From Candidatus Villigracilaceae bacterium (lineage in GTDB: Bacteria > Chloroflexota > Anaerolineae > Anaerolineales > Villigracilaceae): DNA of 64,000 nt. The translations under genes and the position numbers were made by a program. Position 1 is the first letter of the stretch, and every line of letters starts with the position of its first letter. The stretch spans positions 1 through 64,000 of the forward strand of contig JAPKMP010000011.1 in NCBI GenBank assembly GCA_026645935.1, written 5' to 3'. Under the pieces are notes generated by a model, which searched no databases, had not been told where the DNA came from, and saw nothing but the letters and a program-made list of their open reading frames with translations. Shown here in pieces: positions 18,911 through 26,641 of the stretch.

Positions 18911-19014
18911 ATGTCGTTGCGAGCGCACTTTGCGAAGCAACCTCCCGTTTGGGGGATAAATCTCATTTACTGGAGATTGCTTCGTCGGGAAGAGCACCCT
19001 CCTCGCAACGACAT
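18911..19014. repeat. 104-base nested inverted repeat between thiolase-like and HMG-CoA synthase genes
   Basis: Outer arms ATGTCGTTGCGAG (18911-18923) and CTCGCAACGACAT (19002-19014) are perfect over 13 bp. Inside are imperfect arms of the GCGAAGCAACCTCC / GGAGATTGCTTCG type. The right end touches the HMG-CoA synthase stop codon. This GTCGTTGCGAG...GCTTCG...CTCGCAACGACA design is a widespread class of non-coding intergenic repeat. As part of the operon transcript it would fold into a long hairpin. Confidence 0.8.
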
Positions 19015-20090
19015 CATTTCATTTGAAGCTTTCCACGATAGCGCACATACGTGGCGTAATCAATTTCCGTTCGGCGCTTGATGTATTCCTGAGTCTTTGT
19101 AGCGAGATTTTGTCTGGCAGTCACTTTATCAGTGACAGTAATGTCGAAGGCGTCGGACCCGGCTCCGGACCCGAAAGAGACGACGAGTATTCGGTCGCCG
19201 GGTCCGGCGATGTCGAGAGTCGCCGTGAGTCCGATCATTGCCGCGCCTGCGTAGGTATTTCCAATAATTGGCACGAGGAGACCGGGTTCGATCTGTTCGG
19301 CAGAAAAACCAAGTTGACCAGCCACACGCTGCGGGAACTTTGTATTCGGCTGGTGGAAGATCGCCCACTTGTAGTCTTTTGCGGTGGTGCCAGCGGCTTC
19401 CATGAGATGCGTGGCGGCTTCGGTGATGTGCTTGAAGTAAGCGGGTTCGCCCGTGAAGCGCATTCCGTGTTCGGGGTATTTTTGATATTCGCGCCGCCAG
19501 AAGTCGGGCGTATCGGTGACGTAAGAATATGAAGCGTTGATGACCGCCAGCGACTCTTCGGCAGGACCGACGATGTACGCGCCGCCGCCCGCGCCTGCGG
19601 TGTATTCGAGCGCGTCGCCGGGTTTGCCCTGCGCCGTGTCCATGCCGATCGCCATGGCATAGTGACCCATGCCCGAGCCGACCAGTCCCATCGCGGCGAC
19701 AAGCGCCTCAGTCCCGGCCTTACACGCGAATTCCCAATCTGCGGCTTGCGTGTTCGGGACGGCGCCAATGGCTTCAGCCACGAGGGTGGACGTGGGCTTG
19801 ACCGCATACGGATGCGACTCCGAGCCGACCCATACAGCGCGTAATTCGGTTGGGTCAATTTGGGCGCGCATCATCGCATTTCGCGCCGCCTCAATCGACA
19901 TGGTGATCACGTCTTCGTCCAGTCCGGGCACGGCTTTCTCCTTGATGGGAAGTCCGCCGGTCTTGCCCGTCCACACGCGGGCAACTTCTTTTGCAGGCAG
20001 GCGGTATCGCGGCACATACGAGCCATAGCCGACAATGCCGACGGGTTTGACGGGTTTTAGTAAGGTAGGGTAGGGTTGAGGGGTTGTCAT
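19014..20090 (-). CDS. Hydroxymethylglutaryl-CoA synthase, archaeal type
   Basis: Condenses acetyl-CoA with acetoacetyl-CoA to HMG-CoA, the first committed step of the mevalonate pathway. The 358-aa sequence is of the short archaeal type: [39 protein letters not shown] (catalytic Glu region), [11 protein letters not shown] (acyl-accepting Cys), FHQPNTKFP (catalytic His) and [11 protein letters not shown]. All catalytic positions look intact, in contrast to the thiolase homologue downstream. AGGAAA precedes the ATG. Archaeal homologues work in a complex with thiolase and a DUF35 protein; no DUF35 gene is visible here. A transfer from archaea in the history of the lineage is likely but was not tested. 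Confidence 0.92.
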
Positions 20091-20863: not shown

Positions 20864-21619
20864 TCATTCATAAGTCTTATATTCACCCATCATTTGATCT
20901 GCAAACGGTCTGTTGCTTGCGCGGTAGATATCAGCCAACCTGGTCATTTCCAGGTCGACACGGATGAACTCAAGCTGGATATTCGATTTTTCAACGGTAA
21001 GGGTGGCGTACTCCGCCCAGGGGTCGAGCAATTTTTGTTCACTGGTCTGTTCATGATTGTATGCCACGCCGACACTGCCCGGGTTGAAGTAAAAGTTCGG
21101 GCTGTCCCGAAGGCGGCGTGTATATTGCAGGTGGACATGTCCGCCGGTGAGAATATGGTCAGCGTACGGTTTGAGAGTTTCCTGGAACTCATCCTCAGGA
21201 GTGGATGGCAGGAGGATCTGGTCGAACGATGCGGGAGAGCCGTGGAAAGCGAGCAGGCTCTTGCCGTTTCCCAAATCGACGGTGACCGTTGGTTGAAATC
21301 CGCCGATGAATGCATAGTCATCCTTGTTCAGTTTGCTCAATGACCACTCGCGGACAATATTCAATTTCTTCCGGCGTTCTACCGGGATCAAATTCGCATC
21401 GGTCTCGACCCCGGTCAGCAGCCATGCATCAGAATTTCCCATCACGACGGGGCATCTCAGCTCGCGCAGAAGTTGGACGGTCTCATGCGGTTGAGGTCCA
21501 CCCTGGATCATGTCGCCATTGCAGACGATCTGATCGAAACCTTTCTTTTTTGCATCTGCCAGGACAGTTTCGAGCGCCAGACAATTTCCATGAACATCGG
21601 ATAAGACAAGGATTTTCAT
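20864..21619 (-). CDS. YfcE/MJ0936-type metallophosphoesterase
   Basis: A 251-aa calcineurin-like phosphoesterase with all metal motifs: LSDVHGN, NGDMIQGG, GNSD (in place of GNHE/D), FHGSP and GGHVHLQ, followed by NPGSVG. The ATG at 21619 has AAAGGACATACA before it. It follows the MerB-like gene by ten bases, so the two are probably cotranscribed. The substrate could be a phosphodiester or a nucleotide; none is specified by the motifs. Confidence 0.85.
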   Translation of the reverse strand: MKILVLSDVHGNCLALETVLADAKKKGFDQIVCNGDMIQGGPQPHETVQLLRELRCPVVMGNSDAWLLTGVETDANLIPVERRKKLNIVREWSLSKLNKDDYAFIGGFQPTVTVDLGNGKSLLAFHGSPASFDQILLPSTPEDEFQETLKPYADHILTGGHVHLQYTRRLRDSPNFYFNPGSVGVAYNHEQTSEQKLLDPWAEYATLTVEKSNIQLEFIRVDLEMTRLADIYRASNRPFADQMMGEYKTYE

Positions 21620-21629
21620 TGTATGTCCT

Positions 21630-22313
21630 TTATAGATACCAAAATTTCGAAGCCAACCCGGCCTGCTTGAAAATCTCCGCAACTTGTTCCATGCTGCGTC
21701 CATGATACTCCAGTGATATGCGATTACTGTACCAGAGCTTTGAGAGTTTCCACACTTGCTGCAGGGAAAGCATCTCTCCGCGTTCGAGGTTTTGTCGTTT
21801 GCACCACGTATCTACCAATTCTTCCGACCGGAAGAGCAGCATGGTCGCTCAGGTAAAGACTAAGTCCTCGTACCAGCGGGCGAAAGGCAGGGGGAAATGG
21901 ATTAGTAACTCGGTATCAGGCAATTGGGAATTGGTAATTTGTCCACCTTTAATTTCGAGGTGGACGGTATCATTGCTCTCTGTGCAAACTGCATCGATGA
22001 CCGCATCACAATGCAACGCGGCAGGGATGCCGAGCATGTCCCAGGCGCAGTTGGCGAAGTAGGTCTTGCCATTGGCATGGACTTTGAAATCGGTGGGAAA
22101 GCCCGAGAACGGGTTTGCCATGCGGATAGCCATCCTTTCTAAATCGAGGAATAAGGCGTGGCGGTTATGAAGTTCTTTGTAAAGCTCACTGGCTCCTTCA
22201 GTGGAAATTCCAAAATGCGCCGCAGTCTCGTCCACGCTGGGTGGGCGGATGGTCTCTGCGATATGTGAGTAAATAAAATGACGGGCTTGCCAGAGAAGAT
22301 TATCGTCTTTCAT
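21630..22313 (-). CDS. MerB-like (alkylmercury lyase family) protein, candidate selenoprotein with in-frame TGA
   Basis: A 227-residue reading frame interrupted once, by TGA at codon 155 (21849-21851). The part before it has an N-terminal winged-helix-like segment and the MerB core NCAWDMLGIP (Cys89, Asp92) with Cys102 and Cys110. The part after it continues the family without shift (ATMLLFRSEELVDTW, ending LASKFWYL). In MerB the catalytic set is Cys96, Asp99 and Cys159. Cys89 to Asp92 and Cys89 to Cys110 match the MerB spacing (96/99 and 96/117), and the TGA falls on the Cys159 position: FT-TGA-ATMLLFRS against FCCHVHFFAS. This predicts selenocysteine as the third catalytic residue. A SECIS-like hairpin follows. 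Alternatives are a nonsense mutation or reinitiation at the ATG at 21842, which has no ribosome site. Organomercury or another organometal/thiol substrate is inference. Confidence 0.7.
21814..21848 (-). promoter_or_regulatory. SECIS-like hairpin directly after the TGA
   Basis: Counted from the base after TGA: bases 14-19 (TCTTCC) pair perfectly with 24-29 (GGAAGA), leaving the tetraloop GGTC at 20-23. Below an internal loop, bases 4-7 (ACCA) pair with 32-35 (TGGT). Bacterial SECIS elements lie immediately downstream of UGA, with a small apical loop about 16-37 bases away and a G among its first two loop bases; this hairpin meets each rule, and GGU is also in the loop of the E. coli fdhF element. 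Confidence 0.6.
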
Positions 22314-22345: not shown

Positions 22346-23500
22346 CTACCCACTACCCAAAACTGCCTCAATAATCCCCGCATACCCTCTTGCCGTCTTC
22401 GCGAGTTCGTCGAGGCTGAGTTGTTCATCGACTACGTGCGCATCCCCTTCCGCGCCGGGACCAAATCCAATGGTTGGAACCCCCGCCGTGCCAATGCTGT
22501 ACGCGGCGTTGGTGCAGAATCGGTAGGCACCCAGTTTCGGGTCAAGACCAGAGGCGCGTAGTCCGTTCAACGCCATTTGAACGAACTCGTTGTTTTCGTC
22601 CAATTCCCAGGCAGGGAAGAATTTATTCGCGGTCAATGTTTCACCTGTGTAGGTGACGTGGCCACTTTGCGCGATTCTTGCTGTGAAGTTCACATCTTTC
22701 AACGCGGGTAATGAAGTAATTTCATTCAATACGCCTTCAGGTGTTTCACCCGGTAGCAGACGCCGGTCATAGGTCGCATTACATTTGGCGGGAATCACAG
22801 AGTAAGCGGGGTAGGGTTCCGAAATGATATCTGTGAGGGCGCAAATTCCCGGACCCATCAGGGGATGTTCCTTGACTTGGATTTTTTCGATCTCTGCAAT
22901 GACCTTCGTCATCAGATGAATGGCGTTGATGCCGAATTGCGGCGACGATGAGTGTGACGGCTTGCCAATGGCTTCGAGATGGATCTCAGCCCGTCCGCGC
23001 CCGCCGCGTGCTACGTTGAGTTGAGTCGCTTCGCCGATCACCACATAATCCGGCTTGGTCTCGTCCATCACGGCTTTGAGCGCGCCGCCTTCGTACACTT
23101 CTTCCAGCACCGAAGCCGAAATCACCACCGTGCCCGCGAGTTTGATTCTGTCCAGGCTCGCCGCCGCATGGACCATCGCCGCGAGTGAGCCTTTCATATC
23201 CATCACGCCGCGCCCGTACATGTGTGAGTCGGTCACTTCGGCGAGGAAAGGGGCGCGAGTCCATACTGACCCGGGGGCGATTCCCACCGTATCAGTGTGC
23301 GCATCGAAGAGCAGAGTCTTCCCCGCCTGCGCCCCGCGCATCATTCCCACAGCCGAGCCGTATTTGTCCACCCAAACCTTATCGAAGCCGAGAGCGTTCA
23401 TCTCGTCCACGACGAGTCTCGTAACCGCGCCTTCCTCCCCAGACAAACTCGGCTGGCGGACGATTCGTTGGGTGAATTCAATCAAGGCTTCGATATCCAT
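22346..23500 (-). CDS. M20 family metallohydrolase, YgeY-like
   Basis: A 384-aa zinc hydrolase of the ArgE/DapE group. Zinc and catalytic motifs are LLFDAHTDTVG, MYGRGVMDMKGSLAAM, ASVLEEVYEG and, near the C-terminus, GDAHVVDEQ. Several stretches match E. coli YgeY in order (GFDKVWVDKYG, RGGRGRAEIHLEAIGKPSHSS, DRRLLPGETPEG, FFPAWELDE, IGFGPGAEGDAH). YgeY-type proteins are labelled putative selenium-metabolism hydrolases because of gene neighbourhood, not biochemistry. It lies 32 bases upstream of the candidate selenoprotein gene on the same strand. The likely reaction is amide or carbamoyl hydrolysis on an amino-acid-like substrate. Confidence 0.82.
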   Translation of the reverse strand: MDIEALIEFTQRIVRQPSLSGEEGAVTRLVVDEMNALGFDKVWVDKYGSAVGMMRGAQAGKTLLFDAHTDTVGIAPGSVWTRAPFLAEVTDSHMYGRGVMDMKGSLAAMVHAAASLDRIKLAGTVVISASVLEEVYEGGALKAVMDETKPDYVVIGEATQLNVARGGRGRAEIHLEAIGKPSHSSSPQFGINAIHLMTKVIAEIEKIQVKEHPLMGPGICALTDIISEPYPAYSVIPAKCNATYDRRLLPGETPEGVLNEITSLPALKDVNFTARIAQSGHVTYTGETLTANKFFPAWELDENNEFVQMALNGLRASGLDPKLGAYRFCTNAAYSIGTAGVPTIGFGPGAEGDAHVVDEQLSLDELAKTARGYAGIIEAVLGSG

Positions 23501-23605: not shown

Positions 23606-24883
<1,278 letters not shown>

Positions 24884-24938
24884 AATGGTTCCTATTCTAG
24901 CGATTGCCTGTTGGTAAATTCTATCAAATAACAGGACT

Positions 24939-24947
24939 TGGTATAAT
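24939..24947 (+). promoter_or_regulatory. Extended -10 promoter element of the GAF histidine kinase gene
   Basis: TGGTATAAT (TG-N-TATAAT) lies 18 bases before the ATG at 24965, with the ribosome site GGAGGAG between. No convincing -35 hexamer is at 17 bases, as is usual for extended -10 promoters. Confidence 0.55.
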
Positions 24948-24964
24948 TTGCAGGAGGAGTTTGG

Positions 24965-26641
24965 ATGCTTCTGACCCGCGAGCAATTACAGGAACGCCTC
25001 TTTGCGCTTCATCGGGCGAGCCTTGAATTGGTTAAGGATGTTTCGCTGGATACCTTGCTGGAAAGGATCGCATCCACTGCCTGCGAACAGGCGGGGGCAA
25101 AGTATGCCGCATTGGGCGTTCTGGATGAAAAGGGGAAACTCGAAAAGTTCATTTCCGTAGGCATGACCCGCGACGCGGTCAAGCGGATCGCGCATCCGCC
25201 GGTGGGACGCGGTTTGATCGGGGAATTGATGGACACCGAATCCCCCCTGCGTGTTCCCGTGATTCAAAATCATCCCAAGTCTGTGGGTTTTCCCGATCAC
25301 CACCCCAGGATGGTCTCCTTCCTGGGTATGCCAATTCGGACGAGTGACCGTCAGTTGGGACAGATCTACCTGACCGAGAAAAAGGACGCCGATGATTTCT
25401 CGTCGGACGACGAGATGATCATACAAATGCTCGCCACATATGCGGCGACCGCCATCACCAACGCGCGGTTGATCGAAAACATGAGGGAACGCGATGCCGC
25501 GCTGACCCGCCGCAACGTGGACATGAACCTTTTGAACGATATCGCCTCTGCGTTGACCTCCAGCCTCGATCTCAACGAAATTCTGAACAAAGCCCTCGGG
25601 TTGGTGATGAACTATTTAAAAATGGAAGCAGGGGAGATCTTCCTGCTGGAAGAGGATAGGACCACATTGCGCATGATGCTCCATCGCGGGGAAGCCGCCG
25701 AGGCGTTTTGGACAAGAAACTTGTTCAAGGTGGGCGAGGGGTACCCGGGAATCGTTGCGAAAAATGGGCGTCCGATGATCAGCACAGACCTTTCGCAGGA
25801 TGAAAGTTTCCTGCGAAAGGCGGTGGTGAAGGCTGGTTTTCGGCAAATCTTGAGTATTCCCCTTATTTCAAGTGAAAGCGTGATGGGTGTGATGAGCGTT
25901 GCCACGCGTTCGAAGGCTCCGTTCGAAGATCGAAGCGTGCAGATGCTTTCTGCGGTCGGCGCATGGGCGGGACTCGCCATCGAAAATGCCCGATTGCACG
26001 CCAATGCGCGTCGATTGGCGGTCTTGGAGGAACGCAACCGCATCGGTATGGACCTTCACGACGGCATCATTCAATCGATTTACGGGGTTGGGCTGGGTTT
26101 GGAAGGTGCAAAACACCTTGTTATTGAAGATACGGAGGGGGCAAAGGCGAAAATCGACCATGCCATCCACGGTTTGAACCAGGCGATACGCGATTTAAGA
26201 GCGTATATTCTCGATTTAAGACCCCGCCAGCTCGGGAACGACGGCTTAATGAACGGAATCAAGCGCCTGATCACCGAATATCGCGCAAATACATTCTCTG
26301 AAGTGCTTTTTACATCGCCCGAATCCGAGATGAAGGAGTTGACTCAGGCTCAATCTCTCGCATTATTTCATATATGCCAGGAGGCGTTGGCGAATTCCGC
26401 CAAGCATGCGAAGGCAAAAAACGTCCGAATTTCGTTATGGACAACGGAAGATCGCGCTTTATTGGAGATTAACGACGATGGAAAGGGCTTTGATGTTGAA
26501 AAAATGTCCACCTTCATCGGTCACGGACTTGCCAATATGCAGACTCGCGCGCGTTCATCAGGTGGTGATGTCGATATCATATCGATTCAAGGCGAAGGAA
26601 CGACGGTGTTGGCATGGGTTCCGCGCGGAATCAAACAATGA
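24965..26641 (+). CDS. Sensor histidine kinase with two GAF domains, NarL-partner type
   Basis: A 558-aa soluble kinase. GAF 1 spans about 20-165 (YAALGVLDEKGKLEKFISVGM, FLGMPIRTSDRQLGQIYLTEK) and GAF 2 about 185-340 (GEIFLLEEDRTTLRMMLHRG, ILSIPLISSESVMGVMSVA). HisKA_3 follows with ERNRIGMDLHDGIIQSIYGVGL, then an HATPase domain (ICQEALANSAKHAKAKNV, DDGKGFD, GHGLANMQTRA). The layout is that of DevS/DosS-like kinases that pair with LuxR/NarL regulators; none is next to it. Whether a GAF binds haem or flavin cannot be read. Start 24965 has GGAGGAG seven bases upstream. Confidence 0.88.
   Translation: MLLTREQLQERLFALHRASLELVKDVSLDTLLERIASTACEQAGAKYAALGVLDEKGKLEKFISVGMTRDAVKRIAHPPVGRGLIGELMDTESPLRVPVIQNHPKSVGFPDHHPRMVSFLGMPIRTSDRQLGQIYLTEKKDADDFSSDDEMIIQMLATYAATAITNARLIENMRERDAALTRRNVDMNLLNDIASALTSSLDLNEILNKALGLVMNYLKMEAGEIFLLEEDRTTLRMMLHRGEAAEAFWTRNLFKVGEGYPGIVAKNGRPMISTDLSQDESFLRKAVVKAGFRQILSIPLISSESVMGVMSVATRSKAPFEDRSVQMLSAVGAWAGLAIENARLHANARRLAVLEERNRIGMDLHDGIIQSIYGVGLGLEGAKHLVIEDTEGAKAKIDHAIHGLNQAIRDLRAYILDLRPRQLGNDGLMNGIKRLITEYRANTFSEVLFTSPESEMKELTQAQSLALFHICQEALANSAKHAKAKNVRISLWTTEDRALLEINDDGKGFDVEKMSTFIGHGLANMQTRARSSGGDVDIISIQGEGTTVLAWVPRGIKQ

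Follow-up and report, generated by a model that had tools for sequence, protein, structure and literature searches.

A gene on the minus strand of the window, the 64,000-nucleotide stretch of a Candidatus Villigracilaceae (Chloroflexota) contig analysed here, very probably (about 0.93) encodes a functional selenoprotein of the alkylmercury lyase (MerB) family, in which selenocysteine (Sec) would occupy the place of a catalytic cysteine. The frame runs from 22313 to 21630 and comprises 227 codons followed by TAA, with one single in-frame TGA at codon 155, as had been described in the initial annotation. An ordinary open reading frame ends at this TGA after 154 amino acids. The features of the gene are the following:

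21630..22313, minus strand: MerB-family gene, predicted selenoprotein of 227 amino acids with Sec at position 155 (reading frame, Pfam MerB match, structural model, alignment)
21849..21851, minus strand: UGA codon 155, putatively read as Sec, on the MerB Cys159 column (reading frame, homologue alignments)
22047..22049, minus strand: codon of Cys89, equivalent to MerB Cys96 (alignment)
22038..22040, minus strand: codon of Asp92, equivalent to MerB Asp99 (alignment)
22113..22313, minus strand: N-terminal winged-helix-like region, residues 1-67 (AlphaFold2 model and VIA-align comparison to LexA/MntR-type domains)
21819..21836, minus strand: SECIS-like hairpin CUCUUCC-GGUC-GGAAGAA, inner six pairs within 21820-21835 (conservation, motif, frozen codons)

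Relation to MerB

The read-through protein matches the Pfam MerB domain (PF03243) over residues 69-195 with an E value of 7e-27 (94.3 bits for a cut-off of 27). The match thus crosses codon 155, in agreement with the earlier suggestion that both flanks of the TGA belong to one protein family. A profile built from 25 relatives and compared with solved structures finds MerB2 and MerB, and it aligns C89, D92 and residue 155 with Cys96, Asp99 and Cys159 of crystallised MerB. Their register is anchored by the C160S entry (3f2g), so that residue 155 corresponds to Cys159 and not to Cys160, and the TGA indeed falls on the column to which the initial annotation had assigned it. That annotation had also equated Cys89, Asp92 and Cys110 with residues 96, 99 and 117 of MerB; the first two assignments stand, but Cys110 has only the spacing of Cys117 and its position is not conserved within the clade. 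In the same 25-row alignment the arrangement of C89, D92 and U155 is invariant. The motif at the Sec position of the window protein reads TU. An AlphaFold2 model with a mean pLDDT of 91 has its best fold matches, according to VIA-align, in MerB2 (5c17, Z 18.9) and MerB (3f0o, Z 14.9). On the sequence evidence gathered here, membership of the family and possession of the MerB fold can be regarded as almost certain, and the recoding of UGA155 as Sec as nearly as sure.

The window protein shares with MerB (PF03243; PDB 1s6l and 3f0o) the fold and the Cys96 and Asp99 columns. It differs by Sec at the Cys159 column, by the absence of Cys160 and of a conserved Cys117, by a longer C-terminus, and in that no mer operon is seen around its gene. 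Because Sec is a chemical analogue of Cys, the protein counts as a MerB variant and not as a canonical member. MerB2 (5c17) is the closest solved protein both in sequence (E 7.5e-19 by profile) and in fold, and it resembles the window protein further by having a lone Cys on the column of Sec155; however, it lacks Sec and carries Ser where the clade of the window has Asp92.

The UGA and its probable recoding, the hairpin and the selenocysteine machinery

Of 400 Chloroflexota genomes, 36 contain a match to the window protein at an E value of 0.001, and each of the 16 strongest matches contains exactly one TGA. The first set of relatives comprised 57 loci (L018-L074), of which L042 gave no tblastn match; eight of the other 56 were too short for alignment (L032, L039, L040, L041, L046, L047, L072 and L074). 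Two of these short loci nevertheless display the column, L032 with TGA and L046 with Cys. Within the 48 aligned homologues, which come from the Chloroflexota search and from other genome contigs, the TGA column is occupied by U in 41 and by C in 6, and it is shifted in the remaining one, a double-TGA relative. The family profile is also matched by 48 of 249 Gemmatimonadota genomes. L160, one of the 37 loci of this second set, gave no match; of the 36 that were aligned, 30 have U at the column and 5 have C, while L161 is truncated by a contig end and lacks it. Inspection of this column, which the initial annotation had recommended, hence gives U or Cys in full-length relatives apart from the shifted row and the one at the contig end. 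L071 was set aside as a duplicate of L019, and L125 because it is identical with the gene L073; on this basis 69 loci have U at the column and 11 have Cys, counting the Chloroflexota and Gemmatimonadota TGA forms together.

dN/dS is equally low on either side of the TGA, with medians of 0.139 before and 0.155 after it over 196 pairs, a number that includes the duplicate L071 and is confined to pairs of 70-97% identity with unsaturated dS; the first 12 codons past the TGA were left out. A value near 1 downstream had been named at the outset as an argument against Sec, as had a sequencing error, which is at odds with the recurrence of the TGA in 69 distinct loci. No counter-argument of the initial annotation that is open to computation was borne out.

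The TGA is followed, still within the reading frame, by a hairpin that in the window spans bases 15-32 counted from the UGA start and exposes an apical GGUC loop. Its family-wide form is CUCUUCC-RGUC-GGAAG, which begins 15-16 bases beyond the first UGA base. A GGUC loop at a comparable distance is also a feature of the E. coli fdhF SECIS element. The exact motif is present in 66 of the 69 U forms and in none of the 11 Cys forms. The initial annotation had proposed to look for a SECIS element, and a conserved SECIS-like hairpin is indeed there. The codons underneath are frozen: Ser163 is TCG in 40 of 40 rows, Phe161 TTC in 40 of 40 and Leu160 CTC wherever Leu occurs (37 rows). Scored against the codon usage of the family, these three positions have the lowest codon-entropy z-scores among 118 columns (-16 to -19, for a median of -1.8). 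Among the 69 sites, 51 have a GGUC loop, 16 an AGUC loop and 2 a different one, and 67 show standard pairing at every one of the five inner positions. At the sixth pair UA occurs in 42 sites, CG in 11, GC in 1 and UG in 3, and 12 sites are unpaired there; the compensatory pattern at this pair (UA versus CG) becomes visible only once the Gemmatimonadota are added. Within the 40-locus alignment no covariation exceeds that of shuffles, because the stem hardly varies. The folding energy of the single window sequence is not better than that of its shuffles (z -1.0); the case for the hairpin is one of conservation. A scan with Rfam returned nothing relevant at this site. Two Cys forms, L147 and L158, have a different loop and five inner positions that can still pair, and these stems are perhaps SECIS relics.

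All components of selenocysteine synthesis and insertion for which the initial annotation suggested a search were found in the genome: selB (358 bits, cut-off 242), selA (537 bits, cut-off 268), tRNA-Sec with anticodon TCA (UCA) and selD, which is above its cut-off and has one TGA of its own. This selD (L123, G000:C30:11005-11934) is itself a TGA-containing selenoprotein gene, and, as judged by eye, the sequence downstream of its TGA can fold into a hairpin whose loop contains GGUC.

The occurrence of selA was also compared between genomes. It is above cut-off in all 18 Chloroflexota genomes with a TGA form, among them G080 with a fragmentary copy and G137 with the double-TGA form only, versus none of the four with the nearest Cys forms, three of which are one family and therefore not independent (Fisher p 1.4e-4, kinship ignored). 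The five Chloroflexota genomes with distant, TGA-free MerB homologues all have selA. In the Gemmatimonadota, selA accompanies the TGA form in 32 of 32 genomes, some of them with partial genes, compared with 13 of 20 genomes without a match (the first 20 listed; p 5.8e-4, again ignoring kinship), and it is present in two of the five genomes with Cys forms. Named MAGs with TGA forms possess it in 22 of 24 cases, G403 and G412 being those in which it was not found. Overall, selA is present in 71 of 73 TGA-form genomes, a total that allows for G424 being counted in both the named-MAG and the Gemmatimonadota sets.

Possible function and competing explanations

The proposed sequence of events starts with SelB and tRNA-Sec(UCA), which would decode UGA155 under the direction of the downstream in-frame hairpin. 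The mature protein would consist of the N-terminal winged-helix-like region and the MerB core, with Cys89, Asp92 and Sec155 predicted to sit at the places of Cys96, Asp99 and Cys159. In MerB, Cys96 and Cys159 hold the mercury and Asp99 assists (PMC4525700). By analogy, a soft metal bearing a carbon group may be gripped between the thiol of Cys89 and the selenolate of Sec155, and Asp92 may give a proton to the carbon so that the metal-carbon bond is cleaved. From this analogy, cleavage of metal-carbon bonds by the Sec155 protein appears reasonably probable, and organomercury can be put forward only tentatively as the natural substrate.

The neighbourhood of the gene includes the following genes:

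22346..23500, minus strand: M20 peptidase, 32 bases upstream and on the same strand
20864..21619, minus strand: calcineurin-like phosphoesterase, 10 bases downstream, with its ATG at 21619
23606..24985, minus strand: HMG-CoA reductase, linked to the candidate selenoprotein gene in 24 of the 29 loci examined from the group to which the window gene belongs
19014..20090, minus strand: HMG-CoA synthase-like, linked to the candidate selenoprotein gene in 19 of the same 29 loci

Between 17726 and 24985 the candidate selenoprotein gene of the window is thus surrounded by mevalonate-pathway-like genes (HMG-CoA reductase, HMG-CoA synthase-like and thiolase-like). Within the window's own group, HMG-CoA reductase lies at most about 2.6 kb away in the 24 loci, two of which (L071 and L096) are one genome, and HMG-CoA synthase at most about 3 kb away in the 19. 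No mer gene was recognised among 36 neighbour proteins scanned, six from the window and 30 from other loci, many of which have no Pfam match. MerA is above cut-off in 4 of 18 TGA-form genomes and there is none above cut-off in the genome of the window; in G045 and G356 it is located on the contig of the TGA gene, some 24-27 kb off. Mercury as the substrate is accordingly unsupported by genomic context.

These observations lend weight to the most serious competing explanation, in which the same selenoprotein would perform another chemistry, such as the binding, storage or traffic of a soft metal, or a thiol/selenol redox or transfer reaction tied, for example, to the mevalonate pathway. The lack of mer genes among the scanned neighbours, the presence of MerA in four of the 18 genomes and the frequent proximity of HMG-CoA reductase all fit such a role, which has a real, if less than even, chance of being correct. 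However, the whole Cys-Asp-Sec set is invariant over 25 rows, that is, beyond the two residues needed for gripping a metal, and neither HMG-CoA reductase nor HMG-CoA synthase is close to the gene in any of 23 loci examined outside the window's own group. The link to HMG-CoA reductase is limited to that group and is not taken as evidence of function. As no mer gene was recognised among the scanned neighbours either, we prefer to view the protein as a putative stand-alone organometal lyase.

The window protein might also be a plain member of a selenoprotein family that is already known, SaoL (NF040728), a MerB-like organometallic lyase that is listed as a selenoprotein. SaoL is the best NCBIfam match of the window protein and, in the accessible portion of a 2026 selenoproteome review, the sole MerB-like entry, with the motif CU and one Sec (PMC13188914). 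Nevertheless, the window protein reaches 51.6 bits for a cut-off of 140 (88 bits short), the match stops at residue 142 before arriving at Sec155, the motif of the window protein is TU instead of the CU listed there, and none of 301 Chloroflexota genomes has a protein above the SaoL cut-off. Profile score and listed motif, as far as the latter is given in the part of the review at hand, thus set the two apart, and simple membership of SaoL is very unlikely.

The initial annotation had left open whether Sec forms of the MerB family were already described. For the family in a wide sense they are: the part of a 2022 review that was available lists an "Alkylmercury lyase MerB-like protein", WP_238493467.1 (PMC9312934), which is SaoL according to the corresponding part of the 2026 review (PMC13188914), and an "Organic mercuric lyase MerB2" figures in what seems to be the selenoprotein table of a 2020 review, likewise available in part (PMC7435645). 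As far as these partial texts go, both entries match the window protein at the level of the family. For the clade of the window they are not, as far as the search reached: the available portions of PMC9312934 and PMC7435645 describe no MerB selenoprotein clade of Chloroflexota or Gemmatimonadota, and a literature search, which covered titles and opening abstracts among the matches listed and few subscription papers, yielded no paper describing it. The terms MerB and mercury do not occur in the main text of PMC5029168 or PMC12013277, nor do MerB, alkylmercury, mercury or lyase in PMC2398784. Within the literature searched, therefore, both the clade and its arrangement of Sec are new, while the idea of a MerB-like selenoprotein is not.

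Two further explanations deny that the UGA specifies Sec. A census of the MerB domain in the 400 Chloroflexota genomes returned 72 matches, 45 without and 27 with in-frame stops; of the latter, 18 have one TGA and 7 two, versus one TAG and one TAA, this last match being weak and below the MerB family cut-off, so that the preponderance of TGA is beyond chance. A pseudogene, be it through a nonsense mutation or a sequencing error in an ordinary Cys MerB, would explain why the ordinary open reading frame stops at the TGA and has precedents in broken relatives (the fragmentary copy of G080 and a frameshifted Rubrobacter copy), but it is hardly credible and was rejected given this census, the 69 recurring loci and the dN/dS of 0.155 past the TGA. 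Equally negligible is the insertion of another residue (Trp or Cys) through a general code change or plain readthrough, which would keep the frame open as any sense reading of TGA does: TGA terminates 33 of 69 family genes and is consequently still a stop codon that has not been reassigned throughout, relatives without TGA have Cys at the aligned residue, the hairpin motif tracks TGA and not Cys, and the genome has a tRNA-Sec with anticodon UCA.

A large family present in two bacterial phyla seems to have been overlooked. Ordinary gene finding truncates Sec-MerB genes at the TGA, and a large mer survey, in the part of it that was accessible, screened annotated MerB homologues for Cys96, Asp99, Cys159 and Cys117 (PMC8261052), a procedure that would presumably miss genes cut at the TGA. 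If methylmercury were cleaved by these proteins, a sizeable part of the demethylation potential in Chloroflexota and Gemmatimonadota would have escaped notice. According to a review, Hg-C bonds are broken faster by synthetic selone mimics of the lyase than by their sulfur analogues (PMC11639659), and a natural Sec enzyme would offer a direct test of this chemistry in biology.

Evolution of the family and other selenocysteine arrangements

A tree of the family calls for at least four changes between Sec and Cys, two of which are forced by starred branches. The deep forks of this tree are poorly supported, two groups with long branches come together in it and row L155 is mis-trimmed, so that no firm direction can be given to these changes. 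Five Cys forms from Gemmatimonadota and Sphingomonas (L145-L148 and L164), which have Cys at the Asp99 position of the clade, group together within the Sec forms in this tree.

Broken or partial copies occur in several relatives. Those in L110, L111/L074 and L072 consist of C-terminal fragments and an N-terminal piece of 84 residues ending in TGA. The "merB" of a Rubrobacter radiotolerans plasmid corresponds to L082:2456-2925 and is annotated as 2456-2725, ending exactly at the TGA on the Sec column; the frame is shifted past this TGA and the hairpin motif is lost, so that this copy looks like a relic. In G251:C30 (L198) an in-frame TAG interrupts a MerB-like gene towards the end of its MerB domain; the gene is accompanied by a stop-free copy on the same contig and is probably a broken paralogue. 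Viral contigs searched with two peptide patterns contained no relative.

More distant MerB-like proteins carry TGA at both the Cys96 and the Cys159 columns. Those in G137 (three copies), G356, G011, G397 and G338 are all part of the MerB census, and a further one in G073 (L122) was missed by the MerB model and found by the SaoL model. The double-TGA forms do not conform to the canonical MerB residues, and those that were scored with the SaoL model stay below its cut-off. One type has the following members:

L121:4211-4855: double-TGA MerB-like protein, UAID/UAVD...U
L122:4070-4879: double-TGA MerB-like protein, UAID/UAVD...U
L195 (G397:C58): double-TGA MerB-like protein, UAID/UAVD...U
L196 (G338:C70): double-TGA MerB-like protein, UAID/UAVD...U

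In these four, which read UAID or UAVD followed by U, the Asp99 column is kept. L122 has a hairpin with a GGUC loop after each UGA, the two stems being different. L121, L195 and L196 have UUCU-GGUC-AGAA after the second UGA, in which the loop-closing pair is U-A as opposed to C-G in the window, and GCCCUU-CGUGC-AAGGGC after the first. A second type, L075-L078, reads QUGF[DE] or QUGLE followed by U, with D or E at the Asp99 column, and includes three paralogues in one genome (G137). Here the second UGA is followed by a window-type hairpin and the first by GCUGGC-N5-GCUGGC, which pairs partly via G-U. The GCUGGC repeat is also present in L079, a locus of the same group with Cys and then Sec; the element after the first UGA of L075-L078 is therefore doubtful and may reflect a coding constraint. 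Taken together, a clear hairpin follows the second UGA in all eight loci (L121, L122, L195, L196 and L075-L078) and the first UGA in the four UAID/UAVD forms.

It is thus fairly likely that MerB-fold proteins gained Sec several times as selenol organometal lyases, and that in some of them both catalytic cysteines (96 and 159) have become Sec. Such double-Sec enzymes would hold the metal by two selenolates and would constitute unusual metal sites, and standard annotation would truncate their genes. The MerB-like protein of L197 (G066:C14) displays a fourth arrangement, in which Sec on column 159 is followed by Cys on column 160 (GLUCKIYYFAS).
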